Position numbers and translations under genes: made by a program | Notes under the pieces: generated by a model | Database searches by the model: none | What the model saw: only the letters and a program-made list of their open reading frames with translations | What the model was told of the DNA's origin: nothing | NCBI GenBank assembly: GCA_001800315.1 | Contig: MGVE01000004.1 | Span: 1-14,243 of the forward strand | DNA: 14,243 bases | Origin: Elusimicrobia bacterium RIFOXYA2_FULL_47_53 | Lineage (GTDB): Bacteria > Elusimicrobiota > Endomicrobiia > Endomicrobiales > XYA2-FULL-47-53 | Direction of reading: 5' to 3' | Part shown: positions 756-14,243 of the stretch, one piece after another | Numbering within the stretch: position 1 is the first letter of the stretch | How the letters are laid out: each line of letters begins with the position of its first letter

Positions 756-784
756 TTGACAAGCCAGATAATTATCATTATAAT
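756..784 (+). promoter_or_regulatory. Consensus sigma-70 promoter for the hepT-mntA module
   Basis: TTGACA at 756-761 and TATAAT at 779-784 are both exact consensus hexamers, separated by the optimal 17 bp. The DNA upstream is A/T-rich (ACATTTAACATTTT), which could act as an UP element. The expected start site near 791 leaves about 128 nt of leader before the toxin ATG at 919. Confidence 0.8.
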
Positions 785-785
785 T
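770..785. promoter_or_regulatory. Possible operator dyad overlapping the -10 box
   Basis: AATTAT (770-775), CATT, ATAATT (780-785) forms a perfect 6-bp inverted repeat straddling the -10 hexamer, a usual place for toxin-antitoxin autorepression. The sequence is A/T-only in its arms, so chance is a real alternative. Confidence 0.25.
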
Positions 786-819
786 GTATTGAAAATTAAC
801 TGCATTTTTGAAATCCATT

Positions 820-915
820 ATGACGAAAAATAAATTCCGTCTCTATTATGGCGCCGGCACCAACGACAGCCCGAATCTGTCCGCGGTGTTTTTTTATTAT
901 TTTTCACGGGAGTAA
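820..915 (+). CDS. Possible 31-residue leader peptide upstream of hepT
   Basis: An ATG at 820 opens a 31-codon frame ending in TAA 913-915, three bases before the hepT ATG. The peptide starts MTKNKFRLYYGAG and ends with an aromatic, hydrophobic AVFFYYFSRE. It lies wholly inside the leader made from the promoter at 756-784 and spans the hairpin at 858-888. The hepT Shine-Dalgarno (GGGAG, 908-912) lies in its last codons, so translation could couple the two. No clear ribosome-binding site precedes the ATG, and I do not recognise the peptide. It may be a leader peptide, a decayed gene remnant or chance. Confidence 0.25.
   Translation: MTKNKFRLYYGAGTNDSPNLSAVFFYYFSRE
858..895 (+). terminator. 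Hairpin plus T-run in the hepT leader (terminator or attenuator)
   Basis: CACC (858-861) pairs with GGTG (885-888), and GACAG (865-869) with CTGTC (877-881), around a 7-base loop and a 3x3 internal loop. Seven T residues follow at 889-895, then further T-rich sequence. This is the form of an intrinsic terminator, but it lies between a consensus promoter and hepT, so it would act as an attenuator of the toxin-antitoxin operon or end a short leader RNA of about 100 nt. The internal loop weakens the stem. Confidence 0.4.
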
Positions 916-1626: not shown

Positions 1627-4600
1627 ATGAATAAAATATTCTCAAAACTACTATCGTCCGTCATTCCCGAATGTGTCCGCTGGTATGACGACTCAAAGAA
1701 GCCTGTTATTCCTGTGCAAACAGGAATCCATCAAGCCCGTCATTCCAGAATGGTTCTGTCTGGAATCCACAGCAATGGCATTTCATCAATGTCTCTAAGA
1801 AGTGGATCCCTGACTGCTACCTCTGGGATGACAACACAGAAAAAGTCTGTCATTCCCGAATGTGTCCGCTGGCATGACGACTCAAAGAAGTCCGTCATTG
1901 CGAGCGAAGCGGGGCAATCCAAAAGCCTGTCATTCCTGCACACGCAGGAATCCAGAAAAGCTGTCACACACAGGAGTCCGGAATCCAAAAATAAACCTAA
2001 AGACTGGATCCCAGACTACTACCTCCGGGATGACAGCACAAAACAAATCCGTCATTCTTTTATAACGAATATCATAAAACTTATATTCAACAATTTCCGT
2101 TCACTTATCCCTTACCCCTTAGCCCTTACCACTGTCTTTATGGCATTTTCTCTCGCGCACGCGGGGCCGTCAGTCATAACAAACCTTACTGCTTCAACAA
2201 CCTGCCAGACACAGCTCCAGCTTACCTGGACCGCGCCCGAAAACGGGTTTGGTGGAACCTGCAGCTCATACCTCGTAAAATATTCCACAACAGGCGATAT
2301 TGTGGACGACGCGGCGTTTAACAGCGCTTCAACTTTTCCGCAAAGTTGGCCTCCGCGGAACCCGAGCGCGATTGACAAAAAAATATTAACCGGCCTTATA
2401 CCGAGCGTCACATATTATTTTTCAATTAAAAGCGAATTCGGCTCTCTCTACTCGGTTCAGTCAACCACAGGCACCAACGGAGGGATAGCCGGGCCTTTTG
2501 ACATCCACTCAACATTACCCGGCGGCGCCGGATCAACTCTCTGCTGGGGCGATTACGACAACGACGGCGACCTGGATTTATTGTTTTCGGGCAATACTGC
2601 CAATGTTTCAGGAAATACCCACATATTCCGCAATGATTCCGGAACATTTGTCACCTTAACCCCAGGTCCGGGAGTTGCAGGCGGCGCTGTCGCTTGGGGC
2701 GATTATGATAACGACGGCGATCTGGATTATGCCGTGTGCGGTTCTGTTTTGGGCGTGGGATCCTATTCCAGAATATACAAAAATAACGCCGGCTCTTTCA
2801 GCGATATAGGGGCAGGGCTTCCGGGCTTAAGCGACACATCGGTCGCCTGGGGCGATTACGACAACGACGGAGACCTGGACCTGGCTTTAGCCAACTATAT
2901 TTACCGGAACGATTCAGGGACTTTCTCTTACATTACCGGGCTCTCCGGAGGCGTCAGCTATGGTGCGCTCGGGTGGGGCGATTACGATAACGACGGCGAC
3001 CTGGACCTGGCAACCTGCGGCGGAAATACGGCTTACATATACCGCAATGATTCAGGAGCTTTTTTAAACATTAATGCCGGACTAACCGGTGTTAACCCAG
3101 GTTCTCTTGCCTGGGGAGATTACGACAACGACGGCGACCTGGACCTCGTTGTGTGCGGCAGTAACAGCACCAAACTATACAGAAACAACACAGGAAGTTT
3201 TTCCAATGTCGCGTCAGGATTGACTAACTATGACTCCGGAACTTCTGTCGCTTGGGGAGACTATGATAACGACGGCGACCTGGATCTATCCATAAACGGA
3301 CGCATCGGCTCTATCCCCAAAAATGAGGTTTTTCAGAACAATTCCGGGTCGTTCAGCAATATACTTGCCGGGTTGACAGCAACTTATGTTGGTAGCGCGA
3401 CCTGGGGTGATTACGACAACGACGGAGATCTGGACTTGGCCATATCAGGGTACGAGGGGTGGCCAATTTACAGAACCCTGATATACCGCTCATACATGGC
3501 TGATTTCGGCGCAGTGAACACGGCACCCACTGCGCCATCAAGCGGTTTCGGCGCGGACTTTAACACAACCACAGGAATACTCCAGTTTCGCTGGGATCCG
3601 GGCTCTGATACCGAGACAACCGAAACGAAAGGTTTGTACTATCTTGTGCGCGTAAGCACGACAACACCTATTAACGATACAAACAGCAACAAGGTGTCAT
3701 GGAGACCGGCAAGCCCGCTTATGGGCAACTACCGTCATGGATATGTGACGGCCTCGTCAACCCAGTGCGGTTTCAACTACCGCCCACGCCTGACAGATAC
3801 CACCTACTACTGGCAGGTTAGAACCATTGACACGGCGCTTAAAGAATCGGCATGGTCGGTTGAGCAGTCAACTTATGTGCCTCCCGGCCCTTCGCGCATT
3901 TTTGACCTCTCGTTACAGCAAAGCTTTCAGCTGAGGCTTTCCTGGACAGCTCCGGGCGGAGTCACGGGCTACCTCGTAAAATATTCCACCACCGCCAATA
4001 TCGCGACCGAAGAAGACTTTGCCGCGGCGACAACTTTTTACCAGAGCTGGGTACCGGCGTCTCCGGGGACGGGGGAAGCAAAACTATTGACAGGGCTTCT
4101 GCCTGAAGTCACCCACTACTTCTCAATAAAGGGATTTAACGGCTCGTTATATTCGGTTCTCTCGTCAACGGCAAACGGCGCTATGCCAAGCCCTTTTGTG
4201 TCCCGCACAACGCTGTTAGCCTTTCTGCTCGGCTCGCTGGCCTGGGGCGACTACGACAACGACGGAGACTTAGACCTCGCCGCATCCGGCAGCACAAGTT
4301 CCGGAGCCAGAACATATATATACCGTAATGACGCGGGAGTCTTTAACAGCATAAACCCGGGCTTACCCAATATGTATTGGTCTTCTATGTCTTGGGGAGA
4401 TTACGACAACGACGGCGATCTGGACTTGGCTATCAGCGGGTATGATGACTTGGCATATATTTACCGAAACAATGACGGATCGTTTGTTAACATTAACGCC
4501 GGACTTTCAGGTGTGGATCAAGGCTCTATTGCCTGGGGAGATTACGACAACGACGGAGACCTGGACTTGGCGCTCTGCGGCAGCAGCAAGTCAAACATTT

Positions 4601-7600
4601 ACCGCAACGACTCCGGAGCCTTCAACAATATCAATGCAGGGCTAACCGGTGTTAGTTATTCATCGCTTGCCTGGGGAGACTACGACAATGACGGAGATCT
4701 GGATCTGGCGCTTTCGGGCTACAACAGCACTAGTCCATATTATTACTCATTAATTTACCACAACGATTCAGGAGCTTTCAACAATATCAATGCCGGACTA
4801 ACCGGTGTTAGTAATTCATCGCTTGCCTGGGGAGACTACGACAACGACGGCGACCTGGATTTAGTGCTTTCTGGTAGTGACAGCGGCAGCGTGCGGCGCT
4901 CCTACATATATCGCAATGATTCAGGAGCTTTTAACAATATCAATGCGGGATTAACAGGCGTTTACTATTCTTCACTTGCCTGGGGCGATTTTGATAACGA
5001 CGGCGATCTGGATTTGGCTGTCTCAGGCCAGGACAGCGGAAGCGTGGGAAGATCCTTTATTTACCGAAATAACTCCGGCAGTTTTTCAGACATCGCCGCG
5101 GGCTTATCAGGTGTTTTCAATTCCTCGCTCGCGTGGGGCGATTTTGATAACGACGGCGACCTGGACCTAGCCCTCGCAGGCTCTTCAAACGGCGCTGCAA
5201 GCGGTGCCTCAACCTACATATACCACTCCTGCATGGCCGGCATCGGAAATGTAAACACAGCGCCGTCGGCTCCCTCAGACGGTTTCGGTTCGGACTACAA
5301 CTCAACGACAGGCGTTTTACAACTTCGCTGGGGCTACGGCTCGGACGCCCAGACAACCGACCCTAAAGGATTGAACTATACCGTCCGCGTTTCAACCATT
5401 ACACCTATAAGCGATTCAAATTCAAAATTTGTTTCCTGGCGGCCGGCAACGCCTTTTCTCGGCAACTACCCCCATGGATATATTATCGCCTCATCAACCC
5501 AGTGCGGCTTAAATTTTCATACCGGCCTGACCGACACAACTTACTACTGGCAGGTGCGCTCCATTGATACGGCGCTTAAAGAATCCGACTGGTCTGTGGA
5601 GCAGTCAACCTATGTGCCGCTTGTCTTACTGCCAATTCCAAATGTCTCGGTGCAACAGGACTTCCAGTTGAAACTAAGCTGGTTGGCCCCTGTGGGCGCG
5701 GCAGGATACCTTATAAAATATTCCACAACCAACAACATTACCACTGAAAATGAATTTTCCGCGGCAACAACTTTTTACCAGAACTGGACGCCGGCGGCAG
5801 CCGGTTCGGGGGAGACAAAATATTTAACGGGACTTATCCCTTTGGCAACTTACTACTTCTCAATTAAGTGGTCTAACGGCTCGGCATACTCAATTATGTC
5901 TTCATCAGCAAGCGGAGCAACGGCCAGCCCTTTTAGCATTCACACCTCAACATTTACTGGTGTTTATAATTCTTCTCTTGCCTGGGGAGATTACGACAAC
6001 GACGGCGACCTGGACTTGGCCTTGTCAGGCCATACCGGCTCAGCGTATGTTTCCTACATATACCGCAACGACTCAGGGACTTTCAACAATATCAACACCG
6101 GCCTGTCTGGCGTTTTCAATTCATCTCTTGCCTGGGGCGATTACGACAACGACGGCGACCTGGACCTGGCTGTATCAGGCACTAATGGCAGTACTTACTA
6201 CTGCGACATATACCGTAATAACTCGGGGAGCTTTGTCAACATTAATGCCGGGCTGACGGGAGTTGATCAATCTTCTCTTGCCTGGGGAGATTTTGATAAC
6301 GACGGCGACCCGGACCTCGCTGTATTGGGAAACGACGGAAATGGAGCCAAGTCTTACCTGTACCGCAACGATTCAGGAGCTTTTAATAATGTCAACGCGG
6401 GTTTTGTTGCCGTCTCTTATGGCTCTCTTGCCTGGGGCGACTACGACAACGACGGCGACCTGGACCTGGCTATTACAGGAAACGGAACCTATATATACCG
6501 CAACAATTCAGGATCGTTCGTTAATATTAACGCCGGATTAACCGGTTTTACAAACGCTTCGCTCGCGTGGGGCGATTACGATAACGACGGTGACCTGGAC
6601 CTGGCCGTCATGGGGTATTCAAGCGGCGGAAAAACCTATATATACCGCAATAATTCAGGAGCTTTCGCAAACATTAACGCCGGCCTGACTGCTGTATACA
6701 TGGGCTCGCTTGCCTGGGGAGATTACGACAACGACGGCGATCTGGACTTGGCTGTTTCGGGCTATTTTGCGTCAAACAACAATAAATTATACATTTACAG
6801 CAACGATGGCGGAGCCTTCAACATCGTTAGCGCCGGATTAACAGGCGTTCGGAGTTCTTCTCTTGCCTGGGGCGATTACGACAACGACGGCGACCTGGAT
6901 CTGGCTGTCTCGGGAGAGGACAGCAGTTCTGTAAAAAGAACTATGGTATACCGCTCTTATTGGTCGGAAACAGGCACTGTAAATACCGCGCCTTCAGCTC
7001 CTTCAGGCGGTTTTGGCGCGGACTACGACACGGAAACCGGCATATTACAGCTTCGCTGGGATTACGGCTCAGATACCCTAACACCTGATAAGGGACTCTA
7101 TTACACCGTCCGCGTTTCAACCCTCACTCCCATCAGCGACTCAAATTCAAATGTCATCTCATGGCGCCCTTCAACGCCGTTTCTTGGCAGTTACCCTCAC
7201 GGATATATTACCGCCTCGTCAACCCAGTGCGGGCTAAACTTTCGCCCGCGCCAGCCCGATGCCACATATTACTGGCAGGTCAGGGCCATTGACACGGCAC
7301 TAAAGGAATCCGACTGGTCGGTGGAACAGTCCACCTATGTGCCGGCATTTGTATTGCCCATATTTGACCTTGTTGTAAGACAGGACTACCAGCTCAGGCT
7401 TTCCTGGACAGTGCCGGGAAGCGCAGCAAACTACCTGGTAAAATACTCTACCACAGCAAATATAACAACTGAGGAAGAATTTTCCGCGGCAACAACTTTT
7501 TACCAGAACTGGACGCCGGCGGCCTCCGGCTCGGGGGAACTCAAAATCTTAACCGGGCTTCTGCCAGAGGTCACATACTTTTTCTCTATAAAGTGGTCAA

Positions 7601-10600
7601 ACGGCTCCGAATACTCGGTTATTTCCTCGTCAACAAGCGGAGCCATGGCAAATCCGTTTAGCATCAATTCTTCTGCTCCCGGGGGATTTTATTACGGTGC
7701 TCTTGCCTGGGGCGATTACGATAACGACGGCGACCTGGACCTGGCGGTATCGGGTTATGACAGCGGCAACACGCCGCGCTCCTACATTTACAGAAACAAC
7801 TCTGGAGCGTTTGTCAACATCAACGCAGGGCTCACGGCGGTTACCCAATCTTCGTTTGCCTGGGGCGATTACGATAATGACGGCGATTTGGATTTAGCAG
7901 TCTCAGGCAGTGGAATAACTTACATTTACCGCAACAATTCTGGGAGCTTTGCCAACATAAATGCCGGTTTGACGGGAGTTTACAACAGTGCGCTTGCCTG
8001 GGGGGATTACGATAACGACGGCGACCTGGATTTGGCGGTATCAGGAAGCACCAATGGCGGTTCATCAGGGGTAAGTTCACGAATATACCGCAACGACTTG
8101 GGTTCGTTTAACAACATAGCCGCGCCTTTGACAAATCTTTATTATGGCTCTATTGCCTGGGGCGATTATGATAACGACGGCGACCTGGACCTGGCCAATT
8201 TTGGAACTGACATCGGCAACACACGGCGCTCCTATATATACCGCAATGATTCGGTAAGTTTCAATAACATAAATGCCGCGCTGGCAGGACTCTATAATGG
8301 CTCCCTTGCCTGGGGCGACTACGACAACGACGGCGACCTGGACCTGGCTGTCTGCGGAGACACTGGCTCTCCTATTTCCTACATATATCGCAATGATTCC
8401 GGAGCTTTTAACAATATTAACGCTGGATTAACAGGTGTTCAGAGTTCATCTCTTGGCTGGGGCGATTACGACAACGACGGCGACCTGGACCTGGCTGTTT
8501 CAGGCTATGTAGCATACGATAATTATAAGTCTTACCTATACAGAAATAATGCCGGGGTTTTTGATAATATCAGTGCCGGTTTGACAGGGCTTTCTTATGG
8601 CTCCCTTGCCTGGGGGGATTACGACAACGACGGCGACTTGGATCTGGCCTTATGCGGACAAGACGCTATTGATGTGAAATGGTTTTACATTTACAACGGT
8701 TGTTATTCAGTCAGCAGGCCAAACACCCAGCCATCCGCTCCTTCAGGCGGCTTTTCCTCAAGCTTTGACCAGCCCACAATGAAAATGACTTTTAGCTGGG
8801 ACTATGGCTCCGACGCCGAAACAACCGTTCAAAAAGGCCTCTACTACACCGTTCGCGCCTCCACAAACACTCCAATAACCGACACAAACGCTAATATAAT
8901 TTCGTGGCGGCCATCAACGCCGTTTTTTGGAAACTACCCACACGGTTACCGCGTGGCAGCCTCTACCCAGAGCGGCGCTGTTCTTACGGCGCAAAGCGAA
9001 GGGTCAACCTACTACTGGCAGGTAAGGACCATTGACACCGGCTTCTCCTCGTCAGACTGGTCTGAAACGCAAAATACCTATGTTACTCCTATAAAACCGT
9101 CAGCCGTCACAAGCCTTGCCGGCACGCGCTGGACACCCGAGGACAGCATAAAACTTTCCTGGGCAAGCCCGGGCGACGACGGCTATGTCAACAATATTAC
9201 CGGAGGAAAATTCGGCGTAAAGTATTCCACAGGCCCGTCCGACACCTGGGACACTATGCCGTTTTATGTTGAATGGACTACCAACACAACGCCAAGCTCG
9301 CCGCAAACCCGTATAATATCCGGCCTTAATGATTCCTCAACATACTATTTCTTTATTAAGGCCCAAGACGAAATAGAGGGCAACTGGTCCGAGCTGTCCA
9401 ACAGCGCGACAGCCTTTACGCTTGACACCGCGGCGCCCGGCACAATTACAAGCCTTGTTTCGGCTCTTGGGCCGGTCGGCAGGTCCATAACGCTTTCCTG
9501 GGTCTCTCCCGGGGACAACGGATACCTCCACGACATAGAAACCGGCGGCCAATACGAAATAAAGTATTCCACGGTGCCATACTTCGCCTCGGACACCACC
9601 AGCGTAGTGTTCTCAACGGCAATTTCGCCGGGCATGTTCCAGCAATCAATTATTACCGGCCTGCGCGGGTTTACCACCTACTACTTCGCCGTTAAAACCG
9701 CCGACGAAGTCCCGTTTTGGAGCGCGCTCTCTAATATTACAACAGCATACTGCCACGGCACTCCCATAATAACATACCCGGCGTTTACACAGATCAGCAC
9801 CGCTACCGTCACCGTCAACTGGGCCCTTAACGGCAACAACCTCGCCCAATACCTCTGCGAGGTTTCAACTCACTCGGATTACTCTTTGCCGCTCTCTTCG
9901 TCAGGCTGGCTCTCTTACGATACTTCTTCTGCACGCTTTGACCCGCTCTCAATTAACACCACCTTCTACTTCCGCGCTAAATCCATAGACAATATCGGCA
10001 TTGAAAGCCCCTGGCTCGTTATTGGCGACACCTCAACCTACGCCGTCGCCGTAGGCGCGCCAACCATTCTCGGCTACGACGACGACACCTTCCAGACATA
10101 CACACTGGTTGCCATAAGCAGTTCCGGCGCATCAGGCATTAACCCGCCCTGGACCGAATACGCTATTCTTAATATTGAAACCGGCGGCTGGCTCCAAGGC
10201 GACGGATCCACCGGAACCGTTGCCGTATGGAAAACTATTCCAGACTGGGAAACCAACTATTCCAACAGGCACGCGGGCCTGGCTCCTTACTCCTCTTACA
10301 GCTACCGCGTAAGAACAAGAAACAATAACTTAATTGAAACCGCTATAAGCCCCATCGGCTCAGGACTGACTCCATCCGGCCCGCCGTCAACTATCACCGT
10401 CGCCGAAGAAAACGACGACAAACTTAAAATCACCTGGTCCTCCGTAGGGCCTGCTATATCCTATAATGTTTACTACGCCACAGCCACCGACGGCGTATGG
10501 ACAAGCTCGTTTACCGGTATCGCCGACATAACCTACTCAGACGACTTCAGCGGCTCAGTAAGCACAACCACAGGCGTAGCCCTGACACCGCTTTCTACAA

Positions 10601-13600
10601 CACAAATCACTATAGACTGGGACACCTGCGCTGTCATAGAAAGCGCTACCCGCTATTATAAAGTAACAACCGTATCAGCCGGCGGCGAGTCACGCAAAAG
10701 CGCCGTTGGCTCAGGCGACCGCTTCATCACACCCATCATTACCGCCTACAACATTTACCGCGACGGCGCCTTCTTAACAACCGTATCCAGCGACACGCTC
10801 ACGCATACCGATACAGGCTTATTGCCTAACACTTCCTACGCCTTCCAAATAGCAGGCTATTCCTCCGACTCCGTGGAAGGCCCGCTGTCCGTATCCACCA
10901 TGGCCTGGACCCGCGCCCAAACCGCCGGCGCGCCGGCTATCTCGGATGTCCTAACCCATCAGGCTAACTTCACTATTGATATATCCGGCAACTCCCAGCT
11001 GACTGAATACGCCATAGCCCTGTCTTCCGATAACTGGACCGATACCAAATACCTGCAAAATTCAGCCTTCCTTTCCTCAACTATCGTCTGGAATACCACT
11101 GCCTCCTGGCATTCCGTCACCACCGATACCATCAAAGGCCTTAACTCCGGCACCGAATACAAAGCTAAAGTCAAGTCCCGCAATGTTGACGCCGTAGAAC
11201 AGCCCTTTAGCGAGGAAACTTCCTTTACCACACTGCTTGCTACCGCCCCGTTCGTCACTGCCGTCACCACCGGCACAATTTCCTTTGAATTTATCCGCGC
11301 TAACGACCGCCAGGACACACAATACGCCGTAGCACTCTCTACCGACAACTGGGCAACTTTTAAATATCTCCAGGTCGGCGGCACCACTTCGGCTAACACA
11401 GAAATCTGGCAGACTACCACCGCCTGGAACGCTTCAATGGCTGACATAATCACAGGCCTTGTCCCTAACCACAACTACCTCGTTAAAATGAAAAGCAGAA
11501 ACTCTGCCCTGGAAGCCGATAACATCTACGGCTACGCAGCCTCAACCTATACCCTTGCAAATACGCCCATCGCAGCCGCATATTCCAACTTAGCTCCAAA
11601 TGTCATCCGCGCCAACTGGAACGCTAACCTTAACTCTAATTTCACGGAATACTACGCCGAAAATATCACAAAAACAACTAACTCAGGCTGGACCACTAAC
11701 CTATACTGGCAGGAAGCAAGCCTCGCTCCAAACACAAGCTTCTACTATCAGGTCCGCGCCAGAAACTATGACGCCATACAAACCTCCACCGCATCACTCG
11801 GCTATAAATATACCTACGCCCACACGCCGTCTACACCTACTCTTACAACCGACTACGATCTCGTCAACGAACACTATATTGATATCGCCATAAACTCCGA
11901 CGCTAACCCCGACTACACCCAGTACGCCATCTACGGCGGCAACTCGGGCGACGGATACGGCTGGCTACAGGGCGACGGCACCGTCGCTATCCCCGGAACC
12001 CCGGTTTGGAAAACTAAAGCCCAGTGGGAAATTGAAGGCATTAACCGACATAACCACCTCTCTTACTCCACGGACTACGACTACAGCGTCCGCGCAAGAA
12101 ATGTTGAAGGCGTTGAAACCGCTAACGGCACAGCCACTCATATAATCACTCTGCCTCCTAAAGTCACTCTCGGCGGCGTTAACGAAATGTCCGACGACTT
12201 CCTCCGCGCTTCCTGGGCCCCTCTGTCTAATACACTCTACTATATCATTTACCGCTCCTCAGCCTCAGACGGCGTATTTACTCAGCTCTCCACCACTACC
12301 GCTATTACCTACGACGACGATATTGACGGTTCAGGGCCCACTGTTATACCCTCACTGTCGTTTTCTAATGTCACAAACTCTTCCATACAGCTCAACTGGG
12401 ATATTGATACCGAACTCCTGACGCCAAGCACCTCTAAATATTACCAGGTCTCCGCCGTCACAACAGGCGGCGAAGGGCCTAAAAGCGATATCATCGGTAA
12501 CTATGTAACGCCTATTGTCTCGGGATACAGGGTTTACCGCTTCGGCGTTATCATCAGCACATCGCCCAACCTTAGTACCACCTCTTATATAAATACGCCC
12601 CTTGCTCCCAACACAAGTTCCGTCTACGAACTCTCTGTCATAACCTCTGACTCCCTGGAAGGCACAAAATCCTCCCAGTACACAAAATGGTCTCTGGCTA
12701 ATACACCGCTCGCTCCTTCAGTTTCTGCCGACTGGGATGCCGTTAACCTCTACCGCTGCTATGTCACCGTCAACACTAACTCCAACTCTTCTTACACCGA
12801 ATACGCCGTCACTATAGCCTCTATGGGCGCCTTCGGCAACTGGTGGGTCGGAAACGACGGCCTTATCACTCAAACCACCTACTGGTCCACCAACACCCTA
12901 TGGCTTAACAAAGGGCTGACCGGTTCCACAAGCTACTACTACAAAGTCACCGCCCGCAATATGGAAGGCGCCTATACCGTACTGTCACCTCAAACCCTTG
13001 GCCGCACCCCGCCTATACCGGGACCCAAGTTCTTTGCCATGACCTCTCGCGCTCCAACCTATATCTCCTGGACCTGGGTTGACCCGGGCGACGACGAAAC
13101 AGGCTTTAAAGTTTATGCCACTACAGGCGGCACCGTTTCACCGGTCCTTATTCCTAACACCACCTTCTGGACCGAATATAACCTCCTGCCTAACACCACC
13201 TACGCAAGGTACGCCAAAGCTATAGGCCCGGGCCCGGACTTTGAAGAAAGCTTCCCGTCTAACGCTACCGCTTTCTATACCCTTATGCCTAACCCTGATA
13301 CCGTCTCTTTTGTCAGCTTTACTACAACCACTATTACCGTAGCCAACTCCTTCGCGCCGCCTAACATTTCTTCCGCCTCCTCAGGCGTTTATTTCTACAA
13401 TACCACAAGTTCCACCGTATCAGGATGGCTGCAAACTAACTCCTGGACCTCATCAAATCTCGGCATCAACAAACAGTACGCCTTCAAACTTAAACTCCGT
13501 AACGGCGACGCCGTTGAAACTCCCGAAACCTCACTCTTTAACAAATATACAGCCGCCGAAACTCCCGGCGCGCCCACCCTCTTTAAACCAACCGATAAAG

Positions 13601-14243
13601 GTTTCCAGATTATTTTTAAAGCCGATAACAACCCGGACTACACTACCTATTCCATTAAGGTATCTACCCTCGGCGATACAGACCTCTTCGTTCAGCAGGG
13701 CGGCACCGTCGCTCCAACAGCCTTCTTCCAGACTAAAGCATCCTGGGGCGTTGTAACTTCAAGCGGCCTCTCGGCTATGACTACCTATTATGTCTCAATT
13801 AACGCGCGCAACGGCGATAACGACGAAACTCCTTACTCCACCGTATCTACTGTCCGTACCTGGGGCTTCGGACCAACCCTCGCGGGCGGTTATGACCCCA
13901 CCCTTGAATACTATATCACCGTCACCATCAATCAGGGCGACAATACAACAGATACGAAATATGCGGTGTGGAATGTTCCCGGCGGCTGGTTAGACGGAAA
14001 TGGCGGCTTATTGCCTACTGAAACCTACGAGCTGAAATCCTGGTGGGACGGAGTGCCGTTCAGAAACGCGCATACAAACCTTGAACCGGCCAAGATGTAC
14101 AGCTACCGCGTCTTCGCCCAGGACCCTGTCAGTTCCAACACGGTGGTCTCAGCACAGATATCTATTCACACGCCGCCGTCTAATCCGCTGTTTAACTCGG
14201 TGTCTGAAAAGAATTCCGATTACCTTGAACTGAAATGGTCTCT
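1627..14243 (+). CDS. Giant secreted repeat protein: four seven-bladed FG-GAP/VCBS propellers plus a long FN3 array (3' end outside window)
   Basis: One frame runs from an upstream stop (1600-1602) through ATG 1627 to the window edge, about 4,205 codons with no stop. The coding body starts near ATG 2140; mature protein likely begins at 2164 after an AHA signal-peptidase site. Domains in order: four A-propeller-B units (2170-9084), where A is an FN3 domain with the GYLVKYSTT signature, the propeller has seven WGDYDNDGDLDLA blades, and B is an FN3-like domain (NTAPSAPS...TYYWQVR...STYVP). About 18 further FN3-like modules follow, beginning with two SWASPGDDG/SWVSPGDNG types. DNDGDLD is a DxDxDG calcium loop. 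No catalytic domain is visible, so adhesion or a surface scaffold is the likely role. The start is uncertain: 1627 gives a good signal n-region but has no clear ribosome-binding site and is followed by about 480 bp of inserted repeats; 2140 lacks a usable signal peptide. A FlgD-like C-terminal domain may lie beyond the window. Confidence 0.85.
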   Translation, partial: MNKIFSKLLSSVIPECVRWYDDSKKPVIPVQTGIHQARHSRMVLSGIHSNGISSMSLRSGSLTATSGMTTQKKSVIPECVRWHDDSKKSVIASEAGQSKSLSFLHTQESRKAVTHRSPESKNKPKDWIPDYYLRDDSTKQIRHSFITNIIKLIFNNFRSLIPYPLALTTVFMAFSLAHAGPSVITNLTASTTCQTQLQLTWTAPENGFGGTCSSYLVKYSTTGDIVDDAAFNSASTFPQSWPPRNPSAIDKKILTGLIPSVTYYFSIKSEFGSLYSVQSTTGTNGGIAGPFDIHSTLPGGAGSTLCWGDYDNDGDLDLLFSGNTANVSGNTHIFRNDSGTFVTLTPGPGVAGGAVAWGDYDNDGDLDYAVCGSVLGVGSYSRIYKNNAGSFSDIGAGLPGLSDTSVAWGDYDNDGDLDLALANYIYRNDSGTFSYITGLSGGVSYGALGWGDYDNDGDLDLATCGGNTAYIYRNDSGAFLNINAGLTGVNPGSLAWGDYDNDGDLDLVVCGSNSTKLYRNNTGSFSNVASGLTNYDSGTSVAWGDYDNDGDLDLSINGRIGSIPKNEVFQNNSGSFSNILAGLTATYVGSATWGDYDNDGDLDLAISGYEGWPIYRTLIYRSYMADFGAVNTAPTAPSSGFGADFNTTTGILQFRWDPGSDTETTETKGLYYLVRVSTTTPINDTNSNKVSWRPASPLMGNYRHGYVTASSTQCGFNYRPRLTDTTYYWQVRTIDTALKESAWSVEQSTYVPPGPSRIFDLSLQQSFQLRLSWTAPGGVTGYLVKYSTTANIATEEDFAAATTFYQSWVPASPGTGEAKLLTGLLPEVTHYFSIKGFNGSLYSVLSSTANGAMPSPFVSRTTLLAFLLGSLAWGDYDNDGDLDLAASGSTSSGARTYIYRNDAGVFNSINPGLPNMYWSSMSWGDYDNDGDLDLAISGYDDLAYIYRNNDGSFVNINAGLSGVDQGSIAWGDYDNDGDLDLALCGSSKSNIYRNDSGAFNNINAGLTGVSYSSLAWGDYDNDGDLDLALSGYNSTSPYYYSLIYHNDSGAFNNINAGLTGVSNSSLAWGDYDNDGDLDLVLSGSDSGSVRRSYIYRNDSGAFNNINAGLTGVYYSSLAWGDFDNDGDLDLAVSGQDSGSVGRSFIYRNNSGSFSDIAAGLSGVFNSSLAWGDFDNDGDLDLALAGSSNGAASGASTYIYHSCMAGIGNVNTAPSAPSDGFGSDYNSTTGVLQLRWGYGSDAQTTDPKGLNYTVRVSTITPISDSNSKFVSWRPATPFLGNYPHGYIIASSTQCGLNFHTGLTDTTYYWQVRSIDTALKESDWSVEQSTYVPLVLLPIPNVSVQQDFQLKLSWLAPVGAAGYLIKYSTTNNITTENEFSAATTFYQNWTPAAAGSGETKYLTGLIPLATYYFSIKWSNGSAYSIMSSSASGATASPFSIHTSTFTGVYNSSLAWGDYDNDGDLDLALSGHTGSAYVSYIYRNDSGTFNNINTGLSGVFNSSLAWGDYDNDGDLDLAVSGTNGSTYYCDIYRNNSGSFVNINAGLTGVDQSSLAWGDFDNDGDPDLAVLGNDGNGAKSYLYRNDSGAFNNVNAGFVAVSYGSLAWGDYDNDGDLDLAITGNGTYIYRNNSGSFVNINAGLTGFTNASLAWGDYDNDGDLDLAVMGYSSGGKTYIYRNNSGAFANINAGLTAVYMGSLAWGDYDNDGDLDLAVSGYFASNNNKLYIYSNDGGAFNIVSAGLTGVRSSSLAWGDYDNDGDLDLAVSGEDSSSVKRTMVYRSYWSETGTVNTAPSAPSGGFGADYDTETGILQLRWDYGSDTLTPDKGLYYTVRVSTLTPISDSNSNVISWRPSTPFLGSYPHGYITASSTQCGLNFRPRQPDATYYWQVRAIDTALKESDWSVEQSTYVPAFVLPIFDLVVRQDYQLRLSWTVPGSAANYLVKYSTTANITTEEEFSAATTFYQNWTPAASGSGELKILTGLLPEVTYFFSIKWSNGSEYSVISSSTSGAMANPFSINSSAPGGFYYGALAWGDYDNDGDLDLAVSGYDSGNTPRSYIYRNNSGAFVNINAGLTAVTQSSFAWGDYDNDGDLDLAVSGSGITYIYRNNSGSFANINAGLTGVYNSALAWGDYDNDGDLDLAVSGSTNGGSSGVSSRIYRNDLGSFNNIAAPLTNLYYGSIAWGDYDNDGDLDLANFGTDIGNTRRSYIYRNDSVSFNNINAALAGLYNGSLAWGDYDNDGDLDLAVCGDTGSPISYIYRNDSGAFNNINAGLTGVQSSSLGWGDYDNDGDLDLAVSGYVAYDNYKSYLYRNNAGVFDNISAGLTGLSYGSLAWGDYDNDGDLDLALCGQDAIDVKWFYIYNGCYSVSRPNTQPSAPSGGFSSSFDQPTMKMTFSWDYGSDAETTVQKGLYYTVRASTNTPITDTNANIISWRPSTPFFGNYPHGYRVAASTQSGAVLTAQSEGSTYYWQVRTIDTGFSSSDWSETQNTYVTPIKPSAVTSLAGTRWTPEDSIKLSWASPGDDGYVNNITGGKFGVKYSTGPSDTWDTMPFYVEWTTNTTPSSPQTRIISGLNDSSTYYFFIKAQDEIEGNWSELSNSATAFTLDTAAPGTITSLVSALGPVGRSITLSWVSPGDNGYLHDIETGGQYEIKYSTVPYFASDTTSVVFSTAISPGMFQQSIITGLRGFTTYYFAVKTADEVPFWSALSNITTAYCHGTPIITYPAFTQISTATVTVNWALNGNNLAQYLCEVSTHSDYSLPLSSSGWLSYDTSSARFDPLSINTTFYFRAKSIDNIGIESPWLVIGDTSTYAVAVGAPTILGYDDDTFQTYTLVAISSSGASGINPPWTEYAILNIETGGWLQGDGSTGTVAVWKTIPDWETNYSNRHAGLAPYSSYSYRVRTRNNNLIETAISPIGSGLTPSGPPSTITVAEENDDKLKITWSSVGPAISYNVYYATATDGVWTSSFTGIADITYSDDFSGSVSTTTGVALTPLSTTQITIDWDTCAVIESATRYYKVTTVSAGGESRKSAVGSGDRFITPIITAYNIYRDGAFLTTVSSDTLTHTDTGLLPNTSYAFQIAGYSSDSVEGPLSVSTMAWTRAQTAGAPAISDVLTHQANFTIDISGNSQLTEYAIALSSDNWTDTKYLQNSAFLSSTIVWNTTASWHSVTTDTIKGLNSGTEYKAKVKSRNVDAVEQPFSEETSFTTLLATAPFVTAVTTGTISFEFIRANDRQDTQYAVALSTDNWATFKYLQVGGTTSANTEIWQTTTAWNASMADIITGLVPNHNYLVKMKSRNSALEADNIYGYAASTYTLANTPIAAAYSNLAPNVIRANWNANLNSNFTEYYAENITKTTNSGWTTNLYWQEASLAPNTSFYYQVRARNYDAIQTSTASLGYKYTYAHTPSTPTLTTDYDLVNEHYIDIAINSDANPDYTQYAIYGGNSGDGYGWLQGDGTVAIPGTPVWKTKAQWEIEGINRHNHLSYSTDYDYSVRARNVEGVETANGTATHIITLPPKVTLGGVNEMSDDFLRASWAPLSNTLYYIIYRSSASDGVFTQLSTTTAITYDDDIDGSGPTVIPSLSFSNVTNSSIQLNWDIDTELLTPSTSKYYQVSAVTTGGEGPKSDIIGNYVTPIVSGYRVYRFGVIISTSPNLSTTSYINTPLAPNTSSVYELSVITSDSLEGTKSSQYTKWSLANTPLAPSVSADWDAVNLYRCYVTVNTNSNSSYTEYAVTIASMGAFGNWWVGNDGLITQTTYWSTNTLWLNKGLTGSTSYYYKVTARNMEGAYTVLSPQTLGRTPPIPGPKFFAMTSRAPTYISWTWVDPGDDETGFKVYATTGGTVSPVLIPNTTFWTEYNLLPNTTYARYAKAIGPGPDFEESFPSNATAFYTLMPNPDTVSFVSFTTTTITVANSFAPPNISSASSGVYFYNTTSSTVSGWLQTNSWTSSNLGINKQYAFKLKLRNGDAVETPETSLFNKYTAAETPGAPTLFKPTDKGFQIIFKADNNPDYTTYSIKVSTLGDTDLFVQQGGTVAPTAFFQTKASWGVVTSSGLSAMTTYYVSINARNGDNDETPYSTVSTVRTWGFGPTLAGGYDPTLEYYITVTINQGDNTTDTKYAVWNVPGGWLDGNGGLLPTETYELKSWWDGVPFRNAHTNLEPAKMYSYRVFAQDPVSSNTVVSAQISIHTPPSNPLFNSVSEKNSDYLELKWS
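1660..1701 (+). repeat. 42-bp repeat unit, copy 1
   Basis: This copy matches 1849-1890 at 41 of 42 positions. It starts GTCATTCCCGAATG and ends GACTCAAAGAAG. Its first 30 bases are bounded by near-complementary ends (GTCATTCC / GGTATGAC), so it can fold as a hairpin. Confidence 0.85.
1708..1727. repeat. Perfect hairpin repeat (8-bp stem, GCAA loop)
   Basis: ATTCCTGT (1708-1715) pairs fully with ACAGGAAT (1720-1727) around GCAA. It is a sister of the hairpin at 1932-1951, with compensating stem changes. Confidence 0.8.
1742..1766. repeat. Perfect hairpin repeat (8-bp stem, 9-base loop)
   Basis: ATTCCAGA (1742-1749) pairs fully with TCTGGAAT (1759-1766). It belongs to the same interspersed family and resembles the hairpin at 333-353. 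Confidence 0.75.
1849..1890 (+). repeat. 42-bp repeat unit, copy 2
   Basis: It is identical to copy 1 (1660-1701) except for one T-to-C change in the GGYATGAC end. It is followed directly by another GTCATTGCGAG-type unit. Confidence 0.85.
1932..1951. repeat. Perfect hairpin repeat (8-bp stem, ACAC loop)
   Basis: ATTCCTGC (1932-1939) pairs fully with GCAGGAAT (1944-1951) around ACAC. Compared with 1708-1727, the stem change is matched on both arms, suggesting that the structure, not just the sequence, is kept. Confidence 0.8.
2101..2135 (+). repeat. Degenerate heptanucleotide array 4, in the reading frame of the giant gene
   Basis: The 7-mers TCACTTA, TCCCTTA, CCCCTTA, GCCCTTA and CCACTGT form the array. 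Start and end units match array 3 (586-620). In the giant gene's frame it encodes SLIPYPLALTTV, a hydrophobic stretch leading directly into FMAFSLAHA, so repeat DNA could supply a new signal-peptide core. Confidence 0.8.
2491..3516 (+). repeat. Propeller block 1: seven FG-GAP/VCBS-type blades
   Basis: The Trp codons of the WGDYDNDGDLD cores are at 2545, 2695, 2848, 2974, 3112, 3253 and 3403. Each blade continues with LDLA..G, a variable loop, IYRNDSG, then F..I.AGL. A strand FDIHSTLPG before blade 1 and LIYRSYMA after blade 7 fit closure of a ring. Each core carries the DxDxDG calcium-binding loop. Confidence 0.85.
4201..5250 (+). repeat. Propeller block 2: seven blades
   Basis: The blade-core Trp codons are at 4243, 4393, 4534, 4672, 4828, 4981 and 5134. 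Blades 6 and 7 have DF in place of DY. Blades 4 and 5 are nearly identical at the DNA level around the GLTGVS..SSLAWGDYDNDGD stretch, a sign of recent duplication or conversion. Confidence 0.85.
5931..6978 (+). repeat. Propeller block 3: seven blades
   Basis: The blade-core Trp codons are at 5983, 6133, 6283, 6433, 6568, 6715 and 6868. Blade 3 has DF for DY and Pro for Leu in DNDGDPDLA, the only break of the core leucine among the 28 blades. Confidence 0.85.
7661..8712 (+). repeat. Propeller block 4: seven blades
   Basis: The blade-core Trp codons are at 7708, 7861, 7999, 8158, 8311, 8458 and 8611. All seven keep WGDYDNDGDLDLA without change in the calcium loop. The last blade ends FYIYNGCYSV and passes into the fourth B domain. 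Confidence 0.85.
9085..14243 (+). repeat. Long array of diverged FN3-like modules within the giant protein
   Basis: About 18 modules of roughly 55-110 residues continue to the window edge. Recurrent signs are an early ITW/LSW/ANW strand and a late NTSY/TTYY..V..RN strand. Two modules at 9091-9750 are close to the A type (SWASPGDDG, KYSTGP, STYYFFIKA). Further on, a WLQGDG/WLDGNG module recurs near 10.05, 11.85 and 13.87 kb. Module boundaries are approximate and by eye. Confidence 0.7.

Follow-up and report, generated by a model that had tools for sequence, protein, structure and literature searches.

Palindromic repeats that read in frame inside genes are known mainly from Rickettsia, and whether the stretches that they encode act is open. 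CGTC-1 REPs are defined by a CGTC/TGTC tag, an 8-bp stem starting with AT, a loop of 4 bases, and a CCA tail (Di Nocera et al. 2013, PMC3733652). Their superfamily takes in dRS3 of Neisseria and RPE-6 of Rickettsia conorii; the repeats are mostly intergenic and at times clustered, and some lie in frame within ORFs, often at the N terminus, where they are often non-coding (PMC3733652). Rickettsia palindromic elements, ∼150 bp long, are likewise fused in frame, in unrelated genes that stay open (PMC10969869). In ESPR-type autotransporter signals, a long N-terminal part with a charged N-domain precedes an otherwise normal Sec signal, the examples being ∼52 to 55 residues long (PMC2805444). REPs in frame at gene N termini are thus already known (PMC3733652; PMC10969869), and repeats becoming protein in the way considered below is unusual, not unprecedented.

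The window (the whole stretch of DNA analyzed, 14,243 nt) comprises bases 1 to 14243 of contig C4, in a genome of 2.41 Mb and 20 contigs. The best matches of a decarboxylase-like protein encoded in this genome are to Elusimicrobia/Endomicrobiia MAGs, with 83% to Elusimicrobia bacterium RIFOXYA2_FULL_50_26. Assembly breaks fall in giant genes: C4 starts inside the end of one, and a run of N is present. A second giant ORF starts at ATG 1627 and is open to the window end, through 4,205 codons. The window contains the following features.

1 to 269, + strand: 3′ end of another giant gene, with a FlgD-Ig/T9SS-tail-like C terminus (...GVYIYQIEADGRAVNGTIVVAR) that is almost the same as the C8 paralog's end
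285 to 623, + strand: intergenic repeat cluster of REP units and heptamer arrays
584 to 620, + strand: left heptamer array, a direct repeat of the array within the signal peptide
756 to 784, + strand: sigma-70-type consensus promoter TTGACA-N17-TATAAT, conserved at the three paralog loci and at one further locus (alignment)
820 to 915, + strand: leader ORF MTKNKFRLYYGAGTNDSPNLSAVFFYYFSRE across the terminator hairpin, a possible attenuator or small RNA
858 to 895, + strand: intrinsic-terminator-like hairpin, CACC...GGTG followed by T7
919 to 1338, + strand: HEPN/HepT-like nucleotidyltransferase substrate-binding gene
1331 to 1624, + strand: MNT-type nucleotidyltransferase gene
1627 to 1653, + strand: MNKIFSKLL, with its ATG two bases past the preceding stop; identical DNA in C2, absent from C8
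1656 to 2043, + strand: CGTC-1-type REP cluster, read in frame
2044 to 2091, + strand: diverged heptamer-related sub-block common to three paralogs, with no clear protein-level constraint
2092 to 2163, + strand: signal-peptide island NFRSLIPYPLALTTVFMAFSLAHA, with the heptamer array at 2099 to 2135 (three-paralog comparison)
2164 to 14243, + strand: exported part, which contains FN3 and FG-GAP repeats and stays open as far as the window end

Two further giant paralogs have the same 5′ layout, on contigs C2 (L009, from 17603) and C8 (L010, ∼14614 to 15036). All three loci carry, in order, a heptamer array, the promoter, a leader with a hairpin, a REP cluster, and a second array that runs into VFMAFSLAHA/GP, and all three 5′ regions are contig-internal. 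The paralogs are ∼95% identical at their 3′ ends and 60 to 70% identical in the middle. Because the C terminus at the start of C4 matches the end of the C8 paralog, giant genes are probably arranged in tandem.

The palindromic units match the definition of CGTC-1 REPs. The unit at 1708 to 1730 reads ATTCCTGT-GCAA-ACAGGAAT-CCA and that at 1932 to 1954 reads ATTCCTGC-ACAC-GCAGGAAT-CCA, each with an 8-bp stem starting from AT, a 4-base loop, and a CCA tail; a third unit (1742 to 1766) has a loop of 9 bases. The end tag, CGTC or TGTC/CCTC, is strongly overrepresented: in 14.5 kb of clusters, GTCATTCC occurs 59 times against 0.2 expected and CGTCATTCC 36 times against 0.15 expected. The units are dispersed and multicopy; mapping of the genome parts around repeats gave 66 repeat stretches, nearly all intergenic, and 18 further genomes from the order also contain the REP unit. 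A sequence-only reading of the window had likened the repeats to Rickettsia palindromic elements and had noted copies outside genes. The first point is borne out by RPE-6, itself a CGTC-1 REP, and the second by the same units at 285 to 623.

That reading had also described a stop-free run of repeats between MNKIFSKLL and FMAFSLAHA. It holds: the repeats at ∼1656 to 2135 (∼480 bp) have no stop in 159 codons, and the open stretch in the gene frame is 109 codons in C2 and ∼89 in C8. In 62 other repeat stretches, read in the repeat sense, stops occur at 0.033 per codon (∼1 per 30 codons); no open window exists among 1,290 that span 130 codons or among 863 that span 160 codons. Among matching pieces elsewhere, 38 to 42% have a stop or a net frameshift in the gene frame (54 of 129 for C4, 37 of 97 for C2, and 21 of 56 for C8), while the three gene copies have neither. 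The C4 cluster was picked because it is open, and the independent check is therefore on C2 and C8 with 27 shared codons removed; the chance that both are open is then ∼0.008, which is only moderate evidence. A long open frame by itself was rejected as proof of translation, since the frames of two other clusters are equally open into the tadE-like and GIY-YIG-like genes that follow them, and these genes have their own ATG. Among the mapped clusters, going by a reading of the list, only those of the giant genes share a frame with a recognizable gene lacking a usable start of its own downstream.

Comparison of the three paralogs sets the island at 2092 to 2163 apart from its flanks. Only 1 of its 72 columns varies, compared with 130 of the 315 immediately downstream and 20 of the 48 immediately upstream (Fisher P ∼1e-13 and ∼9e-9, respectively, with columns taken as independent). 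Between paralogs, dS is 0 to 0.06 in the island and ∼2 right after the AHA/GP site, where silent sites are saturated and dN is 0.13 to 0.22; in the sub-block at 2044 to 2091, over only 16 codons, dN is 0.25 to 0.35 and dS 0.22 to 0.96. The island has the features of a Sec signal, namely, an R in the n-region, a 12-residue core (LALTTVFMAFSL) with a mean hydropathy of 2.04, and an AHA/G cleavage site, although its core is less hydrophobic than those of other export signals of this genome (2.4 to 2.8). Since the island is near-identical in three genes while silent sites downstream are saturated, NFRSLIPYPLALTTVFMAFSLAHA is most likely the working signal peptide, with about half of it encoded by the array. 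VFMAFSLAHA (2134 to 2163) directly follows that array, which is 95% identical to the array at 584 to 620 and reads YPLALTT where the intergenic copy would read YHLPLTT. The proposal that repeat makes up part of the signal peptide is supported. Because the silent sites of the island have not changed either, protein-level selection alone is insufficient; recent exchange among the loci or a DNA-level constraint must contribute to its identity. Gene conversion is plausible because the giant genes converge to ∼95% at their 3′ ends.

With a start at ATG 2140, just eight residues would precede the cleavage site, so the start must precede the island, and most simply it would be ATG 1627, coupled to the preceding cargo gene. 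The lack of a Shine-Dalgarno sequence at ATG 1627 speaks against this, although just 16 of the 45 first ATGs have the core of such a sequence. In the tentative alternative that most of the frame is untranslated, the cluster would be ordinary 5′ untranslated or intergenic DNA, with a locus-specific or non-AUG start inside it or near its 3′ end. This alternative, which we consider a possibility to be taken seriously if not the favored one, agrees with the often non-coding nature of N-terminal REPs, with the intergenic location of nearly all other clusters here, and with the sub-block at 2044 to 2091, in which protein-level constraint is not clear. Candidate starts exist in C2 (GTG 17852, with AAAGG upstream, which would give a 46-residue signal peptide) and in C8 (TTG 14881), and the start site may differ between loci. 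Against it, three open frames are unlikely by chance. Moreover, the nearest ATG, GTG, or TTG upstream of the island in C4 is ATG 1828, inside the repeats and 88 codons before the island, so that, barring a non-AUG start, at least 88 repeat codons would still be translated there.

Another giant protein of this genome, encoded in L045 (4869 to 5095, G000:C14), has a signal sequence of ∼70 residues in which a long polar stretch leads up to the core; its start codon is GTG, with a good Shine-Dalgarno sequence, and there are no REPs inside. In L046 (3170 to 3700, G000:C8 at ∼231,170), an S26 signal-peptidase-I-like domain (an NCBIfam match below the cutoff) stands at the beginning of a giant ORF, fused in frame ahead of the ORF's own signal peptide; this ORF has at least 3,944 codons and adjoins HprK-like and radical-SAM-like genes.

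MNKIFSKLL had been taken as the first half of an ancestral signal peptide that the repeats split from VFMAFSLAHA. MNKIFSKLLSS is nearly identical in DNA in C4 and C2, in both of which it is in frame to VFMAFSLAHA. A weakly similar segment, INLFFKLLDG, lies past the leader in C8; the likeness, seen by eye, was too weak to use as homology. The nine residues do not form a hydrophobic core by themselves and occur in only two of the three paralogs, directly behind the last cargo gene in both (ATGAATAA overlaps its stop in C2, and a 2-nt gap separates the two in C4). The cargo genes differ between these loci, and MNKIFSKLL may have arrived with them. The search of related genomes for an allele lacking the insert yielded neither a filled nor an empty site: no homologue with this N terminus and no joined halves were found in DNA and protein searches of the genome itself, in 39 relatives, or in a wider contig scan. 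We therefore regard a split signal peptide as doubtful. It is compatible with the cassette that we propose below, from which it differs solely in history.

Upstream of the clusters, the promoter and a leader of ∼100 nt with the terminator hairpin occur in four copies (window 756 to 915, L009 ∼16780 to 16910, L010 ∼14555 to 14690, and L044 ∼1475 to 1605), in this genome only; a DNA search of 83 genomes gave only short chance-like matches to the leader in relatives. Three copies precede the giant genes, and one precedes a gene for an ABC-type substrate-binding protein. In all four, a short ORF (R-L/I-Y-Y/H-G-A-G...A-V-F-F) crosses the terminator, which suggests a possible translation-coupled attenuation or a small RNA. 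The leader has no Rfam match at the gathering score; two sub-threshold miRNA matches are put down to chance. What lies between leader and REP cluster varies: the HEPN/MNT nucleotidyltransferase pair in C4, a putative nucleotidyltransferase gene in C2 (L009 16951 to 17610, named from sequence and with no NCBIfam match), and no cargo gene in C8. The presence of differing nucleotidyltransferase-type genes at the same position in C4 and C2 gives the impression of a site favored for cargo.

That the repeats silenced the genes, or that these are pseudogenes, had also been considered. The leader terminator upstream and the first ATG lacking a Shine-Dalgarno sequence would be in keeping with silencing, but frames of ∼3,800 to 4,240 codons are open in all three paralogs, the consensus promoter is kept in all, and silent changes far exceed replacement changes just after the signal peptide (dS ∼2 versus dN 0.13 to 0.22). 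We consider silencing very improbable.

Taken together, these observations lead us to propose that the feature is a repeat-bearing 5′ cassette of three giant secreted proteins, whose REP-encoded extension is translated and then lost with the signal peptide; we give this reading about an even chance. The conserved 24-codon island would be the functional Sec signal, with the N-terminal half encoded by the heptamer array. The primary product would carry a REP-encoded cytoplasmic extension, which cleavage would discard along with the signal peptide. The extension is not conserved between paralogs, and the repeats would be tolerated for staying open, not for their amino acid sequence. In each locus, two arrays end in CCTTACCACYGT; the first precedes the promoter, and the second lies within the signal peptide. 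This end motif is located at 609 and at 2124 in C4, at 16627 and 17950 in C2, and at 14406 and 14997 in C8. Because the cassette lies between two direct arrays, array-to-array recombination could move or delete it. Such recombination, or gene conversion, may have spread the cassette among the paralogs, and the exchange would have preserved similarity between the promoter and the cleavage site as the mature parts grew apart.

In tag, stem, loop, and tail, and in having in-frame N-terminal cases, the cluster resembles the CGTC-1 REPs described previously (PMC3733652). There, however, the larger REP-encoded stretches are 43 to 82 amino acids, versus ∼160 codons here, and the present cluster has a heptamer array mixed in and, in three paralogs, lies directly against a signal peptide. 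An open frame is shared with the Rickettsia elements, which insert into unrelated genes (PMC10969869), whereas here a mosaic cluster occupies one position in one gene family. Like ESPR-type signals (PMC2805444), the predicted product has a long N-terminal part ahead of an otherwise normal Sec signal; unlike them, this part would be ∼130 to 180 residues (C2 and C4), is unrelated in sequence, varies among paralogs, and has no conserved charged N-domain, since the pre-regions differ save for MNKIFSKLL (two paralogs) and the short sub-block. No report of repeats of this kind in a signal peptide was found in the literature searched, mostly papers free of subscription. What appears to be new here is how large the cluster is, that it lies immediately ahead of the signal core, that an array encodes half of the signal peptide, and that the arrangement recurs in three paralogs.

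A further proposal, which we put forward as a rather unlikely one, is that the heptanucleotide array both belongs to the working h-region and serves as the site at which an exchangeable promoter-leader-signal-peptide cassette recombines. If so, array recombination could delete the promoter or swap the 5′ ends of giant surface proteins while leaving the mature protein unchanged. An export signal would here have been partly created from simple repeat DNA. Repeats at this position would be removed together with the signal peptide at no cost to the mature protein, which offers a simple reason for the survival of such insertions, and the three paralogs make this idea testable.
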